34,464 bases of DNA from Paracoccaceae bacterium (GTDB taxonomy: Bacteria > Pseudomonadota > Alphaproteobacteria > Rhodobacterales > Rhodobacteraceae), in the NCBI GenBank assembly GCA_024227755.1, contig JAAEUB010000166.1:1-34464 (forward strand), given 5' to 3'. The notes under the pieces were generated by a model. It saw only the letters and a list, made by a program, of their open reading frames with translations. It ran no database searches and was not told the origin of the DNA. Shown here one piece after another: positions 2,549-28,425 of the stretch; within the stretch, counting starts at the first letter, position 1; every line of letters starts with the position of its first letter. Made by a program: the position numbers and the translations under genes.

Positions 2549-3268
2549 CTAGTCTTCCAGATGGATATTGAACCGGCGGTTAAGGCGGCTTTTCTTTTCA
2601 ACCTTGCCAAACCGCACCCGGCCAATCTCACCGGTGCGCGCAACGTGCGTACCGCCACAGGGTTGCAAATCGACCTGTTCGTCCACAGTTCCAATACGTA
2701 AAAGCCGCACTTTTCCCGCACCTTTGGGGGGTTGCACGGACATCGTCTTAACCAGCGCTGGATTTGCGGCAAGCTCGCTTTCGCTGATCCAGCTTTCACT
2801 AACCTCGAGATCACGGGCGATAAGCGCGTTTAGGGCATCCTCAAGCGCCTGTTTGTCCTCGGGCGGGTCTTGCATGGCAAAATCTACGCGGCCTTTTTCA
2901 GCCGATATGGCCCCGCCGGTGACCGGCAGGGGGATAACCACGGACAGTAAGTGCAGGGCGGTATGAATGCGCATGTGGCGCAGCCTTTTTTGCCAATCGA
3001 TCTCCTGAATGACCTCTATGCCAATAGTGGGCAAAGTGGCACCTTCATCGGGCACCAGTACGACCGTGTCACCTTCGCCCTTCACGGCTGTCACAACTGG
3101 CATTTCACCGCCGTCCCAGCGCAACAGGCCGCTATCGCCGGGCTGGCCACCACCGGTGGGGTAAAACAGGCTGGCATCCAGCACCACGCCGCCGCGGTCG
3201 TTGTGCGCAACCACACGCCCCGGAGCCTGACGGCGGTACGCATCCTGTCGAAACAACAGCTTATTCAT
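2549..3268 (-). CDS. alaX: alanyl-tRNA editing protein (AlaX family)
   Basis: A 239-aa free-standing relative of the AlaRS editing domain that hydrolyses mischarged Ser- (or Gly-) tRNA-Ala. Both zinc-binding motifs are present: H102 and H106 in HMRIHTALH, and C204 and H208 in QPCGGTHVA. The N-terminal DASLFYPTGGGQPGDSG stretch (31-47) is the conserved glycine-rich strand region. A longer frame opens 38 codons earlier (3382), but the ATG at 3268 is chosen. It has AGGAGAGGGCG directly upstream, and it overlaps the preceding channel gene by 8 nt (ATGAATAA), which indicates translational coupling. It is the last gene of the trgA-trgB-cysK-channel unit. The length fits the medium AlaX-M type. Confidence 0.9.
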   Translation of the reverse strand: MNKLLFRQDAYRRQAPGRVVAHNDRGGVVLDASLFYPTGGGQPGDSGLLRWDGGEMPVVTAVKGEGDTVVLVPDEGATLPTIGIEVIQEIDWQKRLRHMRIHTALHLLSVVIPLPVTGGAISAEKGRVDFAMQDPPEDKQALEDALNALIARDLEVSESWISESELAANPALVKTMSVQPPKGAGKVRLLRIGTVDEQVDLQPCGGTHVARTGEIGRVRFGKVEKKSRLNRRFNIHLED

Positions 3269-21133: not shown

Positions 21134-21583
21134 CTACTTTTTCAAAATCGCCTCAAGGCGTGCCTGTTCCTTGTCACTCAGTGCGTCACCACCCTCACCT
21201 GTCCGTGCCCGGCGGCGCATATAAAGCACCCCACCAATAAGCGCGATCAGGAATAAAACCGGCCCCGCCGCCCATAAAACCAGGTTGGCACCGTCACGGT
21301 TTGGCGTCATCAACACGTATTCGCCGTAGCGCTCGGCGACATAGTCGACAACCGCCTGATCCGTATCCCCCTCAAGCAGCCGTTCACGCACAAGCAGGCG
21401 TAAATCTCGGGCAACTCCGGCATTGCTTTCATCAATGTTTTCACCCCGGCAGACCACACAGCGCAATTCTTGCGAAATAGCGCGGGCGCGGGCTTCAAGG
21501 GCAGGATCTTGCAAAACCTCATCCGGATTAACCGCAAAAAGCGGCGAGCCGATCAAAGCAAAGACAAGGAAAAGACGTTTCAT
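21134..21583 (-). CDS. ccmH: cytochrome c-type biogenesis protein CcmH (CycL)
   Basis: A 149-aa membrane-anchored periplasmic thioredox protein that reduces the CxxCH motif of apocytochrome c before haem attachment. Residues 1-17 form a signal peptide (MKRLFLVFALIGSPLFA). The active site is LRCVVC with C42 and C45. A membrane anchor lies at ~101-123, with a short basic cytoplasmic tail. It overlaps ccmF by 4 nt (ATGA). The CcmI-type TPR extension found in E. coli CcmH is absent, as in other alphaproteobacteria, where CcmI is separate and is not in this window. Confidence 0.96.
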   Translation of the reverse strand: MKRLFLVFALIGSPLFAVNPDEVLQDPALEARARAISQELRCVVCRGENIDESNAGVARDLRLLVRERLLEGDTDQAVVDYVAERYGEYVLMTPNRDGANLVLWAAGPVLFLIALIGGVLYMRRRARTGEGGDALSDKEQARLEAILKK

Positions 21584-23571
21584 TGCGCTGGCACCCCTTT
21601 TGCTGCGGGTTTAGTCACCGGCCGTGCGCGCGCCGCCCCGGCGGCCACCCGGTAACGTCTGTCTGTAAGGCTGATCAACCCGCCGAATGCCATGATAATG
21701 CAACCAGCCCAGATCCAATTTGCGAAGGGCTTGATGAACGTACGCACAGCCCAGCCACCACCCTCCTGCGGATCACCAATCACCAGATAAATGTCGCGCC
21801 ACAATCCATTGGCAATCGCCGCTTCGGTGGTCGGCATACCCTCAACCGGATAGACCCGTTTTTCGGGGTAAAGGCGTACCAACTCGCGCCCATCGCGAAC
21901 AACGCGCATCTCGGCTTTGGTGGAAATGAAATTGGGACCCTGTTCACGACTTACCCCCTCCAGCGTCACCTCATAACCGGCAACAGTGAAGCTTTCGCCC
22001 ACCTGAGCGACGCGAATATCCTCGACCTGCCATGCCAGCAGCCCTGAAATCCCGATAAAGGTGATGCCCAGCCCTGAATGAGCCAAAGCCTTGCCCCAAT
22101 CGGCCCGTGGTAGTTTCCTCAGCCGTGCGGCGCGTCCTTTAAACGGTCCGCGCCCTGTACGCAGCCACAGATCGGTAAACGCGCCGGCAATCAGCCAGAT
22201 TCCCAGTGCAATGCCAACAGGTGCCAAGGCTGATCGCCCGGTTCCGACAGCCCATACCAGTACGCCTACGGACAGAGCCAGTACCGCGGCCCCCCAAAGC
22301 GGGCGCATGGTCCGGCCAAGACGTGCGCGTTTCCACGGCAGCATTGCGCCGATGGGCAAAACTATCGCCAGCACCACCATGAAAGGGGTGAAGGCAGCTT
22401 CAAAATACGGCGCGCCGACAGATAGTTTGCGGTCAAAGAACATCTCGGCCACCAGCGGCCAGATGGTGCCGATAAAGACCACCAGCGATGACACTGCCAG
22501 CAGGATATTATTCAATAGCAGCCCGCTTTCACGGCTTATCATGGCAAAGACCCCGCGCGCCTCCATCGACCGGCCACGGAAAGCAAAAAGCACCAGGGCC
22601 CCGCCGACAAATGCCGCCAAAATACCCAAGATAAACACACCGCGGGTCGGGTCGCTTGAAAACGCATGTACCGATGTCACGATACCCGAACGGGTGATGA
22701 ACGTGCCGATGAGCGAAAAGCCAAAGCCGAGAATGGCCAGCAATACCGTCCAGCTTTTGAGGCTTTCGCGTTTTTCCACCACAATGGCCGAATGCAGCAA
22801 GGCCGCCGAAAACAGCCACGGCATGAAGCTGGCATTTTCCACAGGATCCCAGAACCAAAAACCGCCCCAGCCAAGCTCATAGTAAGCCCACCATGCCCCC
22901 AGCGCGATACCTACAGTCAGGAATATCCAGGCCGCCAGCGTCCACGGTCGGACCCAGCGCGCCCAGGCGGCGTCGACCCGGCCTTCAATCAGGGCGGCAA
23001 CGGCAAAGCTGAAGGCCATCGAGAGCCCGACATAGCCGAGGTACAAAAATGGTGGATGAAATGCCAGGCCAATATCCTGCAATAGGGGGTTTAGCCCCTG
23101 GCCGTCAAAGGGTGGCTGCGCCAGCCGCAGGAAGGGGTTCGAGGTAAAGAGGGAAAAGCTGAGAAAAGCAGCGCCAATCGCCGCCTGCACCGCCAGCACC
23201 CGCGCGCGCAAAGACGGTGGCAACCCGCCGCCGAAAACCGCTGCCATCGCGCCGAACAAAGCCACGATCAGCACCCATAGCAGCATGCTGCCCTCGTGGT
23301 TGCCCCAGACCCCGGTGACTTTATAGAGCATCGGTTTTAAGGAATGCGAGTTTAGCACCACCAGTCGCAGCGAAAAATCCGAGGTCACGAAAGCATGGGT
23401 CAGAGCCGCAAAGGCCCCGGCCACCAATAAAAATTGCAGTACCGCCGCAGGCACCGCCAGCGCCATCCAGCCCTGCCAGCCCTTATGCGCACCGATCAGT
23501 GGTATTACCACCTGCACCAGCGCAACGCCCAGCGCCAGTATCAGCGCAAAATGTCCAACTTCTGTAATCAT
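21580..23571 (-). CDS. ccmF: haem lyase subunit CcmF
   Basis: A 663-aa polytopic membrane protein that, with CcmH and CcmI, attaches haem to apocytochrome c in the periplasm (System I). The tryptophan-rich WWD domain reads WGGFWFWDPVENASF (235-249). GSMLLW (94-99), the HPPFLYLGY segment (172-180) and the conserved N-terminus MITEVGHFALILALGVALVQ confirm family and start. The C-terminal ~200 residues include the large periplasmic loop before the last helix. The only purine-rich site lies ~14 nt upstream, and a TATAAT box lies 9 nt upstream of the ATG, so the mRNA may be leaderless. Unlike the usual ccmE-ccmF order, about 3.4 kb of other genes separate it from ccmE here. Confidence 0.96.
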   Translation of the reverse strand: MITEVGHFALILALGVALVQVVIPLIGAHKGWQGWMALAVPAAVLQFLLVAGAFAALTHAFVTSDFSLRLVVLNSHSLKPMLYKVTGVWGNHEGSMLLWVLIVALFGAMAAVFGGGLPPSLRARVLAVQAAIGAAFLSFSLFTSNPFLRLAQPPFDGQGLNPLLQDIGLAFHPPFLYLGYVGLSMAFSFAVAALIEGRVDAAWARWVRPWTLAAWIFLTVGIALGAWWAYYELGWGGFWFWDPVENASFMPWLFSAALLHSAIVVEKRESLKSWTVLLAILGFGFSLIGTFITRSGIVTSVHAFSSDPTRGVFILGILAAFVGGALVLFAFRGRSMEARGVFAMISRESGLLLNNILLAVSSLVVFIGTIWPLVAEMFFDRKLSVGAPYFEAAFTPFMVVLAIVLPIGAMLPWKRARLGRTMRPLWGAAVLALSVGVLVWAVGTGRSALAPVGIALGIWLIAGAFTDLWLRTGRGPFKGRAARLRKLPRADWGKALAHSGLGITFIGISGLLAWQVEDIRVAQVGESFTVAGYEVTLEGVSREQGPNFISTKAEMRVVRDGRELVRLYPEKRVYPVEGMPTTEAAIANGLWRDIYLVIGDPQEGGGWAVRTFIKPFANWIWAGCIIMAFGGLISLTDRRYRVAAGAARARPVTKPAAKGVPAQ

Positions 23572-23579
23572 GGCGCGAC

Positions 23580-23585
23580 ATTATA
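23580..23585 (-). promoter_or_regulatory. consensus -10 box immediately before ccmF
   Basis: On the minus strand TATAAT occurs with 8 nt between it and the ccmF ATG. No good -35 at 16-18 nt is visible (TTGGCA lies 21 nt upstream of the box). If used, transcription would start at or next to the start codon. Confidence 0.35.
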
Positions 23586-23620
23586 ACTTCTCCCGGAATT
23601 GACCAGTGCCAATGATGTGA

Positions 23621-24096
23621 ATTGATGTCACACCGGGAAAAACCCCGGTTGCACCAGATCCCATTGTTGCTGCTCGGGCACCAATGCCCGTTGTCGCGGA
23701 CAGGTGGGACGGCTTTTGTGTAGGTGTCTATGCGGGAACAGTTTATGACGGAATTGAAACAGTGTTCGGGATTATGGGCGGACATAACCGGCAATCCGGC
23801 ACCTTCGTCTTTGGTGTCGAACTGGACGCATTCTCGGCTAGCCCTTCAAGCGATAGCGGGGTTTTTCTGAATGCCCGCGCTGGTGTTGCCCTTGGGGATA
23901 CGCGCTTGTGTTCCTTAAAGCAGGCCGTGGTCAGTATAACGGAAATCTTGATCTAAATGGTGCAGGCCTAGGCGCCGAGTTTGCAGTGAGTGACAACCTT
24001 TCAATCCGGTTTGACTATGAGTGGCATAACATAACCGGAGCTGATGTCTTTGACGGATCGGCCTTTGCCAAACTGGGCGCGGTCTGGAGCTTCTAA
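23621..24096 (+). pseudogene. decayed outer-membrane beta-barrel protein gene
   Basis: Two overlapping frames together encode one barrel protein. The first frame (from ~23621; only ATG at 23684) reads VVADRWDGFCVGVYAG ... VFGVELDAFS ... NARAGVALGDTRL. The second frame, from ~23905, continues VFLKAGRGQYNGNLDLNG ... GAVWSF and ends with the C-terminal phenylalanine expected for barrel insertion. The frames differ by two, so one base has been lost (or two gained) near 23900. There is no signal peptide: the open frame begins in what should be the mature N-terminus, and the stop at 23618 plus ccmF at 23571 leave no room for one. The alignable intact copy is the next gene. A fine terminator still follows it. 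Confidence 0.75.
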
Positions 24097-24121
24097 AAGC
24101 GACGCAATGAAATTATTTCTG

Positions 24122-24151
24122 GGGGCCGTGCTAAAGCGCGGCCCCTTTTTT
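24122..24151 (+). terminator. strong Rho-independent terminator after the barrel pseudogene
   Basis: GGGGCCGTGC (24122-24131) pairs with GCGCGGCCCC (24136-24145) over 10 bp with one G-U pair and a TAAA loop, followed by six T (24146-24151). Confidence 0.85.
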
Positions 24152-24363
24152 GTGAAACAGAGAAATTCCTGCCAAATAGCAAACGCCCCGGAAACCATCC
24201 TCGCCATTGGCTGGCACCAATGTCACACTATTTGTGGAAATTGGCAAAAAACAGCCTTAAGGCGAAAATGGGAGTTTTCCCTTCCGCATTTGTGATTATA
24301 AGTGATATTAGTAAAAAAAAGAATCCATGAGACATGATCTCGAGCATCCCGGAGAAAAAGGTT

Positions 24364-24888
24364 ATGAAAATCCTCAAACTCACAAGTATTACAGCGGCCT
24401 TCGTCGCGGCCTTAAGCGGCGTTGCACTGGCCGGTTCCTATACGCCGCCGCCAATCGTGCCGCCTCTTGCCCCGCCGCCGCCTGCAGCACATGACTGGAC
24501 AGGCATGTACGGCGACCTCTATGCCGGGCACTGGATCGACCCGGCTGTGGGTAATTACTTCGGTGCCAATATCGGCTATCTGGCCGGTGGCGGCGCGTTC
24601 CTATTTGGCGGCGAACTTGGCTTGATCTATGACCCATCCCTGGACTACACACAGTATACACTGGATCTTCGGGTCGGCGCGCCAGTCGGTGATAACGCGA
24701 TGGTTTTCGCCAATATTGGTCTCGGCCAAGATGATGTCTCGGTGACTTTCGGTGAATACTCGATCGGTGGCCAATATGCCTTCGCGAGCAATGTATATGT
24801 TCGCGGAGAAGTCATTGGCCAGACCGCGATTAGCGGGGCTTCCGGCACAACCTCTGCCGTCCGGCTTGGACTTGGCTGGGGATTCTAA
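24364..24888 (+). CDS. outer-membrane beta-barrel protein (porin-like, 8-strand class)
   Basis: 174 aa. The ATG at 24364 starts a clear signal peptide (MKILKLTSITAAFVAALSGV, cleavage after ALA at 23); an upstream in-frame ATG (24334) would bury it behind ten polar residues. A proline-rich linker (PPPIVPPLAPPPP, 28-40) is followed by alternating amphipathic strands with glycine/aromatic turns, ending in LGLGWGF, the C-terminal aromatic signal for BAM insertion. It resembles small Omp25/OmpW-size barrels, but no specific family can be named. It is the intact paralogue of the decayed gene before it (aligned blocks such as FLFGGEL / FVFGVEL). It has its own promoter region (24152-24363) and terminator. 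Confidence 0.75.
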   Translation: MKILKLTSITAAFVAALSGVALAGSYTPPPIVPPLAPPPPAAHDWTGMYGDLYAGHWIDPAVGNYFGANIGYLAGGGAFLFGGELGLIYDPSLDYTQYTLDLRVGAPVGDNAMVFANIGLGQDDVSVTFGEYSIGGQYAFASNVYVRGEVIGQTAISGASGTTSAVRLGLGWGF

Positions 24889-24914
24889 GCCCAAAACGAA
24901 CTACAAAAAGCTGG

Positions 24915-24950
24915 CCAAGGCCGCCTCAGGGATAACGGCCTTGGTTTTTT
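24915..24950 (+). terminator. Rho-independent terminator after the barrel protein gene
   Basis: CCAAGGCCG (24915-24923) and CGGCCTTGG (24936-24944) form a perfect 9-bp stem with a 12-nt loop, followed by six T. It lies 26 nt after the stop codon and before the convergent 140-aa gene. A T5 run on the minus side suggests it may also stop leftward transcription. Confidence 0.88.
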
Positions 24951-24974
24951 GCGCTTATGCTATCCATTTGCGGC

Positions 24975-25397
24975 TCACACCAACAGGTAAATCCCTGCCG
25001 ACAGGCCGACTGCGCCGATAACCGGCAATAAAAACGCTGCACCGTGCAGACCAAAGCTGCGGTGGATGACAGCGAAATGCAGCACTGCGCCGACAAAATA
25101 GAATGGCAGGAAGGCAAACAGGACCGGGCTTTCACGCAGCCACAAAGGTTGGCCGTTAAGGTTAAACAACCACCACCAGCCCAGGACAAAACCCGCCCCG
25201 GCCCAACTATAGGCCATGCCCAGCGCAAGGGGGGTGGCTCGCACCACGAATAGCCATAAGAAGGTGGCGGCGATCATCATCGCCATCAAGGTTATAGCCC
25301 CATATGCAACCTGATACACCGCCTGATATCCAAGCAGATAGTAGCCAATCTGAAACATGGCGATAAGGGCTAAAAGCATTAAAAATGCCTGTTTCAT
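24975..25397 (-). CDS. hypothetical polytopic membrane protein, last gene of the lysis cassette
   Basis: A 140-aa very hydrophobic protein with about five membrane segments (near 4-22, 30-52, 57-78, 90-111 and 118-139) and almost no soluble part; tryptophans cluster in GWWWLFNLNGQPLWL (73-87). The start ATG overlaps the stop of the 47-aa gene (ATGA). I recognise no family. Position at the end of the endolysin-holin cassette suggests co-expression, but it could be an unrelated membrane protein that is merely co-transcribed. Confidence 0.7.
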   Translation of the reverse strand: MKQAFLMLLALIAMFQIGYYLLGYQAVYQVAYGAITLMAMMIAATFLWLFVVRATPLALGMAYSWAGAGFVLGWWWLFNLNGQPLWLRESPVLFAFLPFYFVGAVLHFAVIHRSFGLHGAAFLLPVIGAVGLSAGIYLLV

Positions 25398-25537
25398 TGG
25401 CGTAGAACCTCTCTGACCACTGCATCCAAATCCCGTGCGGCTTTTTGGTTGCGTTCCAATGCTTTATGAAGCTCCACACCACCAAGAACCTGTCGGATCC
25501 AGGTCATTATCCGGCGACGAATAACAGGGGGTTTCAT
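25394..25537 (-). CDS. small basic protein of 47 aa in the lysis cassette
   Basis: The ATG at 25537 follows GGAGGGGGCG and overlaps the stop of the 62-aa gene (ATGA); its own stop overlaps the next start (ATGA). The product begins MKPPVIRRRIMTWIRQVLGG and continues as an amphipathic, charged helix (LHKALERNQKAARDLDAVVREVL). It has no signal peptide or full membrane span. I know no family for it. Overlaps on both sides and the strong ribosome site are the evidence that it is translated. Confidence 0.6.
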   Translation of the reverse strand: MKPPVIRRRIMTWIRQVLGGVELHKALERNQKAARDLDAVVREVLRQ

Positions 25538-25722
25538 CGCCCCCTCCCTGCGGGAAGCCGCTCGCGGATGATGGTGGTGATTTCGATCAATATGGCCGAG
25601 TTTTTGTCCAGAACCGCACGCGTTGCCATGTCTTTTTGCACGTCGCGCCATAGAAGGTAAAAGACCAGCAAAACCCAAGGCCCGTGTTCAGCCACCAGAC
25701 GCAGAACGATGTCAGACCCCAC
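25534..25722 (-). CDS. small single-TM protein of 62 aa in the lysis cassette
   Basis: Start chosen at GTG 25722: GGAGG lies exactly 7 nt upstream, and the start overlaps the end of the holin gene by 11 nt. ATGs further upstream in frame lie deep inside the holin gene. The product has one membrane segment (LVAEHGPWVLLVFYLLW, ~9-25) followed by a charged, probably cytoplasmic helix (WRDVQKDMATRAVLDKN...). Size and topology would suit a holin modulator or antiholin, but this is inference from position only; I know no named family. Confidence 0.6.
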   Translation of the reverse strand: MGSDIVLRLVAEHGPWVLLVFYLLWRDVQKDMATRAVLDKNSAILIEITTIIRERLPAGRGR

Positions 25723-26263
25723 CGTCCTGCCTCCAATTGTCAAGGGCAGCATTGGGGCCCGCTTCCGGCTCAGGACCAGTGACCGACCCTGCCCCTGCCT
25801 CCAAAGCCTCAAGGGCGCGCAGATTTTGCGCTACCCCATCTACCCGCGCCATTGTTTCAGCAATAGAGCGTTGAAATTCCTGGCCTTTCAGTTGATGGCG
25901 GGCACCAAAATAAAAGCTGACAATAGCACCAAGCAACCACCAAAGCGGCTCGGGCACCAATGATATGCCCTGCATCCGTGAGGCGAACCAAACCGGGTTA
26001 GTCATCGCCGACATAAACAACCCCAAAGTACCCAACGCCAGCGCCGGGCGCGGCACCCGGTTCAAACCATCCATAAACCGGTCAAAGAGGCCCCGGCGCG
26101 GCAGGGCAAACTCGGCTGCGAACTGGTTCAGGGCAGCACCACGAAGCTGGACCTCGCGCTGACCCGCTGCTTCGCTGTTTTCACGAAAAACCTCGGCGGT
26201 TTCGCGCACGACATTGCGCCCGCCACCAAACAACAGGCTGAAAAGCGCTTCGATTATCCCCAC
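25712..26263 (-). CDS. GTA-type holin (3TM holin family)
   Basis: A 183-aa membrane protein resembling the gene-transfer-agent holin family, which permeabilises the inner membrane so that the endolysin can reach peptidoglycan and release GTA particles. Start chosen at GTG 26263 (product MGIIEALFSLLFGGGRNVVRE), with GGGTGG upstream and a 10-nt overlap with the endolysin end. Longer frames run into the endolysin. Hydrophobic segments lie at ~2-13 (amphipathic), 73-95 (LALGTLGLFMSAMTNPVWFAS) and 105-122 (EPLWWLLGAIVSFYFGAR). Polar helices lie between (20-60) and after them (123-183). In Rhodobacter capsulatus the GTA lysis genes lie away from the main head-tail cluster, as here. Confidence 0.78.
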   Translation of the reverse strand: MGIIEALFSLLFGGGRNVVRETAEVFRENSEAAGQREVQLRGAALNQFAAEFALPRRGLFDRFMDGLNRVPRPALALGTLGLFMSAMTNPVWFASRMQGISLVPEPLWWLLGAIVSFYFGARHQLKGQEFQRSIAETMARVDGVAQNLRALEALEAGAGSVTGPEPEAGPNAALDNWRQDGGV

Positions 26264-26865
26264 GCTGCCACCCGCGTCCGATGTTCGGCGTCGCTCAGAT
26301 GATATTCGGGCGATATGAACGCCTCGGCGCGTGTGATCCAACCGCCTTTGCCGCCATCGCGCCGCCGCGCGTATTTGCGACTGGCCGGGCGATTGTCAGC
26401 TAAGCGATAATAATAGTTGCGCCTTTCAATCCCATAGGCATCACGAAAATGGCCGGGGGCGCTTGCATATGCTGCCTCAGCGGCAGCAATCGTCATCGGC
26501 CCGATGGCCCCGTCTACAGCCAGGTCATGCCCCATACGTCTAAGCAGTTTTTGCAATATGCGAACAGCACCACCGCCTGCATTGACATACATGTCAAATA
26601 CCGATGCCTGCACCGGTTCAGGCAAGGTATCTATGCGGGGGCGTTCAAAATAGTGCTTAACAAAGATGCCACGTGCTTGGTCTTTGGTTAGACTGCGCAC
26701 ATCGGCCTCGCTCACCCTCTCGTCGCCGTTCAGGTCCATCCCAAGGCGACGTAAAGTGTGAATCGTTACCCCGAAATTTGTCGCCCCGCCGGGATCATCG
26801 GGGTCATTTACATAGCCGCCTTCACGGTCAAGAATGTCGTCGGCAATCTCAAATACAGTTTTCAT
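26254..26865 (-). CDS. GTA-type endolysin, glycoside hydrolase family 108 with peptidoglycan-binding C-terminus
   Basis: A 203-aa muramidase-like lysin. The GH108 signature is complete: the catalytic Glu is E15 in REGGYVNDPDDPGGATNFG (14-32), with HYFERPRIDTLP (~71-82). Residues 84-130 hold the second half of the catalytic domain (FDMYVNAG) and the DGAIGPMT motif of the PG_binding_3 type. Residues 44-55 read DLNGDERVSEAD, a 12-residue EF-hand-like loop (D44, N46, D48, D55), which hints at calcium binding. There is no signal peptide, so export depends on the holin encoded by the overlapping next gene. AAGG precedes the ATG. A CtrA-like site lies ~41-55 nt upstream. Confidence 0.88.
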   Translation of the reverse strand: MKTVFEIADDILDREGGYVNDPDDPGGATNFGVTIHTLRRLGMDLNGDERVSEADVRSLTKDQARGIFVKHYFERPRIDTLPEPVQASVFDMYVNAGGGAVRILQKLLRRMGHDLAVDGAIGPMTIAAAEAAYASAPGHFRDAYGIERRNYYYRLADNRPASRKYARRRDGGKGGWITRAEAFISPEYHLSDAEHRTRVAAWG

Positions 26866-26905
26866 GAGCCTTAACCCCTACGTGAAATACACGCGGGACA
26901 GGCTG

Positions 26906-26920
26906 TTACCCAGTCGTTAA
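26906..26920. promoter_or_regulatory. CtrA-like binding site upstream of the endolysin gene
   Basis: TTAC (26906-26909), seven bases, then TTAA (26917-26920) matches the CtrA consensus TTAA-N7-TTAA in seven of eight defined positions. It lies 41-55 nt before the endolysin ATG, about where a -35 region would be, in the 66-bp ccmE-endolysin gap. CtrA is required for GTA lysis gene expression in Rhodobacter capsulatus. The assignment is by pattern only, and such a short site can arise by chance. Confidence 0.4.
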
Positions 26921-26931
26921 CAAATCAAAAA

Positions 26932-27384
26932 TCAGGCGTCCGGGTCAACATAAACACCCTGTTCTTTCAGGCTGTCAATAACCTCGCGGGGCATATAGCT
27001 TTCGTCATGTTTGGCAAGAATTTCCGTGGCTTGAAAGACATTATTGACGTAGTTACCCGTGCCAATCATGCTTTGGCCTTCACCGAACAAATCGGGCAGG
27101 ATACCGCTGAAGGCAACTGGCACCTCAACCCCGTAATCGGTGACAACAAAATGCACGATCTCACCTTCACCGCGAACAAGGCTGCCCTCAACAACCACAC
27201 CGCCAAGACGGAAAACCTCGCTTTCACGTGGTGGATCTTCAAGCAGTTGCGTCGGCGAGCGGTATAGATTGATGCCATCTTTCATCGCATAGCCGATCAG
27301 CACAGTCGCCACGGCCAGAGCAACGAAAGTCAGCACGATCACCTGAATGCGGCGCCGTTTCTTCAAGCTTTTCATTCCAGCCAT
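26932..27384 (-). CDS. ccmE: cytochrome c maturation haem chaperone CcmE
   Basis: 150 aa. It carries haem covalently bound in the periplasm and hands it to CcmF/CcmH. The N-terminal anchor (basic KKRRR, then a membrane helix at ~13-33) is followed by an OB-fold domain. The haem-binding H126 and Y130 lie in LAKHDESYMPREV, the family signature. AGGAGGAAT precedes the ATG. It begins 12 nt after the argC stop, so it is probably read from the argC promoter. Its functional partners ccmF and ccmH lie 3.4 kb further on, beyond the lysis cassette and the barrel genes. Confidence 0.97.
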   Translation of the reverse strand: MAGMKSLKKRRRIQVIVLTFVALAVATVLIGYAMKDGINLYRSPTQLLEDPPRESEVFRLGGVVVEGSLVRGEGEIVHFVVTDYGVEVPVAFSGILPDLFGEGQSMIGTGNYVNNVFQATEILAKHDESYMPREVIDSLKEQGVYVDPDA

Positions 27385-27396
27385 TTCAATTCCTCC

Positions 27397-28425
27397 TCAG
27401 GGAAATACAGGGGCATGCGTCAGCCCCGTGGTTTCCGCTTCACCTAACATGATATTCGCATTTTGCAGCGCCTGGCCGCTTGAACCCTTGGTCAAATTGT
27501 CAAGCGCTGCCACCACGATCGCACGACCTTCTATCCGGTCTGCGCTGACCCCGACATGGCAGAAGTTTGAGCCGCGGATATGCCGGGTCGAAGGCAGTTC
27601 ACCCATTGGCAACGTCACCATGAAAGGTTCATCCTGATAGGCCCTGGTCAGCGTATCAAATACACGATCGGGATCACCCTTGACGTAAACCGTTGCCAAT
27701 ATGCCCCTATTGGCCGGGATCAGATGTGGCGTGAACTGCACGCGCACCTCGCGCCCGGCAATCAGGCTGAACTCTTGATCAAACTCGGCCAGATGTCGGT
27801 GGGTGCCACCGGCTGCATAAGCATGCGCACCCTCGCTCAGCTCTGCGTGCAGCAGGTTTTCTTTCAGCGCGCGCCCTGCCCCGGAAACCCCGGTTTTAAG
27901 GTCAATGATGATTTCATCCAGATCAATCACCCCGGCGGCGATCAACGGCCGCAAGGCATATTGTCCGGTGGCGGCGTTACAACCCGTGCCGGCGACGACC
28001 CGCGCAGTGCGAATGTCGTCACGATAAAACTCGGTCAGACCATAGACGGCCTCGGCCTGGACCCCAAGGGCCGCGTGTTCGCCGCCATACCAACGTGCGT
28101 ATTCTTGCGGATCACGCAGCCGGAAATCAGCGGAAAGATCCACTATTTTCAAGTGCTTGGGAAGGTCGCGTATGACTTCCTGACTGGTTGCATGCGGCAA
28201 GGCGCAAAAGCATAGATCAATATCCGCAAAGTCGATCTGGTCAATTTTCACCAGTTCAGGCAAATCCAGATGCCTGAGATGCGGGAACACCTTTGCCATC
28301 GGCAACCCGGCCTTGGAATTGGCCGCAAGTGCCGCGATCTCCATCGTCGGATGGGTTGCGATCAGGCGCACAAGTTCGGCCCCGGTATAGCCGGACGCAC
28401 CCAGAATGGCGATTTTATGGGTCAT
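27397..28425 (-). CDS. argC: N-acetyl-gamma-glutamyl-phosphate reductase
   Basis: A 342-aa NADPH-dependent enzyme of arginine synthesis. The dinucleotide motif is [13 protein letters not shown] (9-21), and the catalytic cysteine is C149 in [25 protein letters not shown] and [11 protein letters not shown] match the catalytic half of the family. AGAGGTCACC precedes the ATG. It lies between murI (55 bp upstream) and ccmE (12 bp downstream). Confidence 0.97.

Follow-up and report, generated by a model that had tools for sequence, protein, structure and literature searches.

The closest described counterparts of the locus studied here are the gene transfer agent (GTA) lysis genes of Rhodobacter capsulatus (rcc00555, endolysin, and rcc00556, holin) and Dinoroseobacter shibae (Dshi_1756 and Dshi_1757). 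We analysed a stretch of 34,464 nucleotides (nt), hereafter the window, from contig JAAEUB010000166.1 (assembly GCA_024227755.1) of a Paracoccaceae bacterium of the Rhodobacteraceae, in which a similar endolysin-holin pair is followed by three small genes for proteins of 62, 47 and 140 amino acids (aa). The lysis proteins of R. capsulatus and D. shibae presumably belong to the same families as those of the window, an assumption that draws on the Pfam name and not on a comparison of sequences. Two genes are named in the accessible descriptions of these species, whereas here three more overlap downstream; the contrast concerns the named genes. As in the window, the R. capsulatus pair is unlinked from the GTA structural cluster, a known arrangement (PMC8601537, PMC6209664), and putative CtrA half-sites have been reported at the lysis promoter (PMC9638019).

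Two Bacillus prophage modules bear on the first of the small proteins. With BhlA of the SPbeta set (blyA-bhlA-bhlB), the 62-aa protein shares its small size, a membrane segment starting at GP(W/F), a charged helix behind it and a place beside the holin. The match itself is weak (best E 9.2e-4), and the phages with BhlA are those of Gram-positive hosts and mostly encode amidases, whereas a muramidase of glycoside hydrolase family 108 (GH108) is found here; no gene resembling those for the 47- and 140-aa proteins was noticed in their annotated stretches, where none was searched for. XhlA (PF10779) of the PBSX set (xhlA-xhlB-xlyA) is, like the 62-aa protein, a one-segment membrane protein with a presumably cytoplasmic coil, and an XhlA-like protein occupies the same slot behind the holin of other Rhodobacterales genera. 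The membrane segment of the XhlA-like proteins is C-terminal, whereas that of the 62-aa protein lies near the N-terminus. In Bacillus, none of xhlA, xhlB and xlyA could be dispensed with for the release of vesicles, which agrees with what had been reported earlier for lysis (PMC5589764). In Caulobacter, another alphaproteobacterium, host lysis mediated by the GTA is under the dedicated control of LypABC, a different kind of protein; the same paper reports no homologues of holin and endolysin in that system (PMC13236601).

Our analysis of the window leads us to lean towards a GTA lysis operon in which the 62- and 47-aa proteins would form a co-holin module, with the 140-aa protein as an optional accessory. 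The main new point is that BhlA-like and XhlA-like proteins are found in the same place behind the same holin.

A GTA release operon with three additional genes

The original prediction had described a five-gene, fully overlapping cassette on the minus strand, and every open reading frame (ORF) and overlap (10, 11, 4 and 4 nt in succession) was recovered as described. In order of transcription the genes are:

26254-26865, minus strand: endolysin, a GH108 N-acetylmuramidase of the holin-associated kind, 203 aa, ATG start (PF05838, PF09374, NF040573)
25712-26263, minus strand: holin, 183 aa, GTG start (PF11351, GTA_holin_3TM), sharing 10 nt with the endolysin gene
25534-25722, minus strand: BhlA-like protein, 62 aa, GTG start, sharing 11 nt with the holin gene
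25394-25537, minus strand: basic protein, 47 aa, ATG start, sharing 4 nt (ATGA) with the 62-aa gene
24975-25397, minus strand: five-helix membrane protein, 140 aa, ATG start, sharing 4 nt (ATGA) with the 47-aa gene

The core of the operon is the already known GTA lysis pair, muramidase and holin. The endolysin matched PF05838 (E 8e-28) and PF09374 (GH108 and PG_binding_3), as well as NF040573, 'holin-associated N-acetylmuramidase', at 351.5 bits against a cut-off of 240. Its first 60 residues contain no hydrophobic segment and thus no apparent signal sequence, so that its earlier description as a GH108 enzyme lacking a signal peptide stands. Also as predicted, the holin is of the type with three transmembrane segments (3TM) known as a partner of the endolysin in GTA release: it matched PF11351 (E 2.1e-28, 99.7 bits against a cut-off of 24.8), a family described as 'holin of 3TMs, for gene-transfer release'.

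No GTA structural gene was apparent among the ORFs read from 22.5 to 29.5 kb of the window, in line with what had been stated for the window as a whole. The structural cluster lies on another contig (C505) of the source genome (89.96% complete, 4.68% contamination, 539 contigs), which carries the sole GTA_TIM match of that genome. Nine of the ten ORFs scanned on C505 matched Pfam families: terminase, portal, prohead protease, capsid, connector, DUF2460, Phage_BR0599, the GTA_TIM tail protein and a YceG-like protein. The YceG-like ORF, presumably of a lytic transglycosylase family, lies at the edge of the structural contig (L149:15926-17083). Taken together, the sequence data support the five genes as a GTA release (lysis) operon of this Rhodobacteraceae bacterium.

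All three small genes are real and conserved. The ratio of non-synonymous to synonymous differences (pN/pS), pooled from 11 hand-picked close pairs, is below 1 for each of the five genes (muramidase 0.18, holin 0.28, 62-aa 0.14, 47-aa 0.40, 140-aa 0.24). Constraint within these pairs is strongest on the 62-aa protein, which has the lowest ratio.

Distribution of the small genes

Among 292 genomes of the order, the muramidase family is present in 283 and the 62-aa protein in 20 (10 of 113 genera). The small genes therefore do not belong generally to GTA release in Rhodobacterales. A homologue of the 47-aa protein (37 to 52 aa) directly follows the 62-aa gene in all 20 cassette genomes, and the 140-aa protein occurs in 18, every one of them among these 20. 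One of the two genomes lacking it carries an 84-aa protein at that place and the other carries nothing. The 84-aa protein (L081, G283, oriented 2803-3057) is hydrophobic, with two membrane segments by eye, and replaces the 140-aa gene behind the 47-aa gene.

In each of the 20 genomes the 62-aa gene lies directly behind the holin and muramidase genes. GTA_TIM is also present in all of them, including the 19 of 19 other than the source genome, with one match partial. The two outcomes that would have spoken against the original prediction, absence of the small genes beside the holin and persistence without a GTA cluster and endolysin, were thus not observed. The tight link of the cassette is to holin and muramidase, not to the presence of the GTA cluster. 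Eight genomes of the order (G013, G081, G110, G141, G145, G149, G227 and G247) have a GTA_TIM match, partial in G110, and no match to the holin-associated muramidase.

A scan of named genome contigs gave 122 relatives of the 62-aa protein, from which 80 loci were kept. The genera represented are all Rhodobacterales (Aliiroseovarius, Maritimibacter, Celeribacter, Palleronia, Pacificibacter, Silicimonas, Boseongicola and others), and two records are metagenome-assembled genomes labelled only as Alphaproteobacteria. Together with the 20 loci of the order sample, and after removal of 9 duplicates from the resulting 100, 91 distinct loci were obtained. All of them contain the 62-aa gene, which served as the query, and the 20 loci used to build the model match by construction. 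The holin is present in 89 and the muramidase in 88, the three incomplete loci ending at contig edges; a 47-aa homologue was found in 91 and the 140-aa gene in 79. The last figure may be a slight undercount, because two loci scored as lacking the 140-aa gene (L223 and L227) show very weak similarity at the expected place. Wherever the contig reaches, then, the 62-aa gene stands beside holin and muramidase, and the assignment of the three small genes to the operon is borne out.

The overlaps are conserved as well. Muramidase and holin overlap in 87 of 88 distinct loci, holin and 62-aa gene in 84 of 89, the 62- and 47-aa genes in 64 of 91 (by 4 nt in 61) and the 47- and 140-aa genes in 74 of 79 (by 4 nt in 73). 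For these counts the start codon nearest to a 4-nt overlap was chosen, which favours overlaps. Across the 91 loci, overlaps are more frequent than expected by chance.

Among 367 genomes spread over the class and searched for the 62- and 140-aa families, G000 alone has the former; the latter was detected there too and, weakly, within a 486-aa frame of G644 (E 2.6e-4, 22 bits). A search of 50,697 phage records gave no match for the 62-aa protein (E limit 10), the 140-aa protein (E limit 1) or the holin (E limit 1), and pattern scans of viral contigs with the 62- and 140-aa families found no relative. A phage origin was considered and set aside, as no phage source was found for these three proteins; a lost or highly diverged source may still exist, and the phage searches did not include the 47-aa protein. 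No description of the 62-, 47- or 140-aa genes was found in the accessible text of the open-access papers listed as matches, the subscription literature lying outside this coverage. The accessory module is thus conserved, lineage-limited and apparently undescribed in the open-access literature, in contrast to the core lysis pair.

A BhlA-like protein behind the holin

In the 62-aa protein, a short membrane segment beginning at a GPW motif is followed by a charged helix. Thirteen positions are invariant in 66 sequences of the family: G14, P15, W16, V20, F21, L23, L24, D27, K30, T34, R35, N41 and T50. AlphaFold2 predicted helices at residues 2-13 and 16-55 (mean predicted local distance difference test score, pLDDT, 82; predicted template modelling score, pTM, 0.42). 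Since the second helix spans residues 16-55, the start of the membrane segment would continue into the charged helix. By the positive-inside rule, the charged flank behind the membrane segment suggests that the C-terminus is cytoplasmic.

None of the 62-, 47- and 140-aa proteins of the window had a match above the cut-off in Pfam, PHROGs or NCBIfam, and no relative of solved structure was found by sequence for the 62- and 140-aa families. At relaxed thresholds the 62-aa family points to BhlA (PF10960), which was matched by 16 of 20 members at E<=5 and by 46 of 66 at E<=1 (best 9.2e-4), the next family being matched by 4; none of ten reversed sequences matched PF10960. In PHROGs the most frequent match was phrog_2429 (8 of 20 members, best E 0.057), whose label is the one given for the BhlA gene of SPBc2. 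A profile comparison (hhalign) with nine phage BhlA proteins gave E 3.5e-4, a probability of 37% and 54 aligned columns. The score was attained by 1 of 200 column shuffles, and reversed BhlA scored 17.2 against 24.3 for the true comparison. Comparison with the XhlA-like family gave E 0.44, and no sequence relation between the two was found. In eight phage stretches around BhlA-like genes, a cell-wall hydrolase lies at most two genes away in seven; the eighth, which is cut short, has a holin. These data weakly support a BhlA-like protein and do not prove membership of the BhlA family. The statement that the small proteins are unaccounted for accordingly holds for the 47- and 140-aa proteins, which match no family over the cut-off; it does not wholly hold for the 62-aa protein, because this is BhlA-like.

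The variable slot between holin and ccmF

The lysis genes occupy a conserved setting, ccmF - lysis genes - ccmE - argC, within 21580-28425 of the window and all on the minus strand. We take the flanking genes to be ccmF, ccmE and argC from the appearance of their proteins:

21580-23571, minus strand: ccmF
26932-27384, minus strand: ccmE
27397-28425, minus strand: argC

For comparison we chose 59 more loci, each from a different genus in which the 62-aa gene was not found; they derive from the best-scoring muramidase matches, and weakly scoring genera were left out. A homologue of the PF11351 holin is present in all 79 loci compared, 59 of which lack the 62-aa gene; ccmF is within reach in 63, ccmE in 67 and argC in 58.

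Behind the holin, the 59 loci have an XhlA-like protein of about 67 aa (11 loci), a third membrane protein of about 50 aa (2 loci) or nothing recognizable (46 loci). All 11 XhlA-like proteins match PF10779 (best E 3.6e-12); a bit score is available for the first member only and, at 30.9, falls just short of the cut-off of 34.7. The third occupant, found in two genera (L147 and L148), is hydrophobic and by eye unlike either XhlA-like or BhlA-like proteins. The surroundings are conserved, as the distance from the holin stop codon to ccmF illustrates. In the 34 loci with no recognizable occupant and with ccmF in reach it is 52-171 nt in 31 and 241-836 nt in the other three; in the XhlA loci it is 268-335 nt in 10 of 11 and 706 nt in the other; in 16 of the 20 cassette loci, those with ccmF in reach, it is 393-2369 nt.

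The XhlA-like family occurs in 40 of the 292 order genomes and in none of the 20 that carry the 62-aa gene. When coordinates were compared by hand, 32 of the 40 XhlA-like genes lay within about 1.3 kb of the muramidase and one lay on another contig; for the remaining seven genomes the muramidase was not among the matches listed. An XhlA protein and a muramidase-containing protein have also been reported for the roseophages phiCB2047-A and -C (PMC10783043).

On a tree of endolysin and holin from the 79 loci, the slot states require 8 changes against 29.6 in shuffles, and hence follow descent; the tree was built by a quick method, and 34 of its 76 inner branches are weakly supported. Slot contents would thus have changed on no more than a few occasions, by exchange or by loss, exchange and loss being indistinguishable on this tree, and a single origin of each state may be compatible with its well-supported branches. 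With either protein, BhlA-like or XhlA-like, a short coil would come to lie at the cytoplasmic side of the membrane. It is tempting, if more doubtful than our general reading of the operon, to propose that GTA-carrying Rhodobacteraceae keep a 'co-holin slot' between holin and ccmF whose content is exchangeable. One-segment membrane coil proteins of phage lysis type that are unrelated to each other (XhlA-like, BhlA-like with the 47-aa partner, a third kind, or none) would swap there and tune the timing and manner of GTA release, and the BhlA-like lineages would have added a five-helix family without known relatives as a further release factor.

The 47-aa and 140-aa proteins

The 47-aa protein lacks a membrane segment, has a mean net charge of +4 and shows a conserved RN..AA..LD pattern. 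Similar C-terminal ends had raised the suspicion that it is a shortened copy of the 62-aa protein; this was unsupported (hhalign E 0.052 over 19 columns), and comparison with BhlA gave E 0.35. The 140-aa protein was modelled by AlphaFold2 as a five-helix bundle (mean pLDDT 96.3). Foldseek returned no match to this model under E 1.4, and VIA-align gave Z scores of up to 8.7 scattered over unrelated helical proteins, a possible background for helical bundles.

A proposed co-holin module and its alternatives

According to the explanation that we favour, the 62-aa protein would tether a helical coil to the cytoplasmic side of the membrane beside the holin, and the 47-aa protein would pair with this coil or rest on the membrane by its basic helix. 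Together they could assist the holin in forming a lesion at the proper moment, the part that has been suggested for XhlA with respect to XhlB in PBSX. The muramidase would then gain access to the wall and GTA particles would exit by lysis, with the 140-aa protein as an optional membrane accessory of this step. Other genera have an XhlA-like protein or no recognizable gene in the slot between holin and ccmF that the module would occupy. The three small genes are probably interchangeable release accessories.

Several observations weigh against this explanation. The protein of the window itself has no match to PF10960, and no match of its family to PF10960 was shown to attain the Pfam cut-off. 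The hhalign score against BhlA was attained by 4 of 200 shuffles that keep the membrane segment, and with the 62-aa profile reversed the score is still 19.9, against 24.3 for the true one. Most genera sampled lack the 62-/47-aa module. The lack of any genome with both BhlA-like and XhlA-like proteins departs only mildly from expectation (P 0.047 by genome and 0.20 by genus), with kinship as a confounder that these values ignore, and mutual exclusion was dropped as a statistical claim. Nearly every genome tested in the order has GTA_TIM (41 of 42, including 8 of 9 without the muramidase), and its co-occurrence with the cassette therefore says little. The SPbeta set blyA-bhlAB, unlike the PBSX set, induced no vesicles on expression in Bacillus (PMC5589764). 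We found no expression or functional data for the 62-, 47- and 140-aa genes, and the 140-aa protein may serve another job.

Alternatively, the 62- and 47-aa proteins could act as an antiholin that binds the holin and holds back lysis until the particles mature. A small one-segment membrane protein beside the holin, with a soluble basic partner and an overlap that would keep their levels matched, agrees with such a role, and nothing in the sequence distinguishes an antiholin from a co-holin. However, descriptions of BhlA, the nearest family, and of XhlA, recognized in the slot of other genera, treat both as proteins of holin type or as helpers of a holin. We prefer a co-holin because BhlA and XhlA belong to holin-endolysin modules in prophages of Bacillus, and regard an antiholin as possible but less likely.

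It is less likely still that the three genes are passengers, or have another function such as membrane vesicle release or protection from lysis, and merely share the operon. This would be most plausible for the 140-aa gene, which was undetected in 12 of the 91 distinct loci and whose protein gave no known fold or family. Yet the 140-aa protein never occurs without the 62-aa gene in the order sample, the 62-aa gene was not found away from the holin, and all three small genes are under purifying selection.

Slightly less probable again, the 62-aa protein could be the main holin or a second independent one, with a different role for the PF11351 protein, as the naming of PF10960 as a holin family and the stronger purifying selection on the 62-aa protein (pooled pN/pS 0.14 against 0.28) might suggest, but the PF11351 homologue is present in 79 of 79 loci and 59 of these lack the 62-aa gene, so that release is presumably possible without it. 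The spanin-like role that had also been proposed seems unlikely, because inspection by eye, without a signal-peptide program, showed no lipoprotein or periplasmic domain and because the 62-aa protein has its charged coil on what is presumably the cytoplasmic side; scans of Pfam, PHROGs and NCBIfam matched no spanin family.

Promoter, operon end and flanking region

Two putative control elements border the lysis operon:

26906-26920, minus strand: CtrA-like site TTAACGACTGGGTAA, one mismatch to TTAA-N7-TTAA, beginning 55 nt before the endolysin start
24915-24944, minus strand: terminator-like hairpin of 11 pairs, 3' of the 140-aa gene, found by pattern scan, a possible end of the operon

With TTAA-N7-TTAA, which we take to be the CtrA motif, 50 of the 79 loci had a site with at most 2 mismatches within 120 nt upstream of the muramidase; such sites occurred in 14% of the upstream regions after mononucleotide shuffling and in 7% of random stretches. 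A hairpin overlapping 24915-24944 also reads as a terminator on the plus strand, and the evidence for termination is weak because 5 terminator-like sites were observed in the region against 3.4 in shuffles. In R. capsulatus the lysis promoter is reported to be bound by GafA, and CtrA to be required for endolysin induction (PMC6363796). Late in GTA production CtrA, probably with the activator GafA, could thus turn on the whole operon, and all five genes would be co-transcribed as far as the hairpin.

Between ccmF and the lysis operon, the plus strand carries a 184-aa ORF (24334-24888) with a signal-like start and, by eye, an outer-membrane-like sequence. Shorter plus-strand ORFs before it (region 23684-24888) resemble by eye pieces of a similar gene.

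Significance for GTA release

GTA release kills the producing cell. If the explanation proposed here is true, GTA lysis in part of a large marine group would be modular rather than a matter of two genes, and the 62-, 47- and 140-aa genes would be direct, named targets for deletion. Moreover, the exchange of BhlA-like and XhlA-like proteins at a fixed chromosomal place would permit these poorly understood holin partners to be compared in similar hosts.

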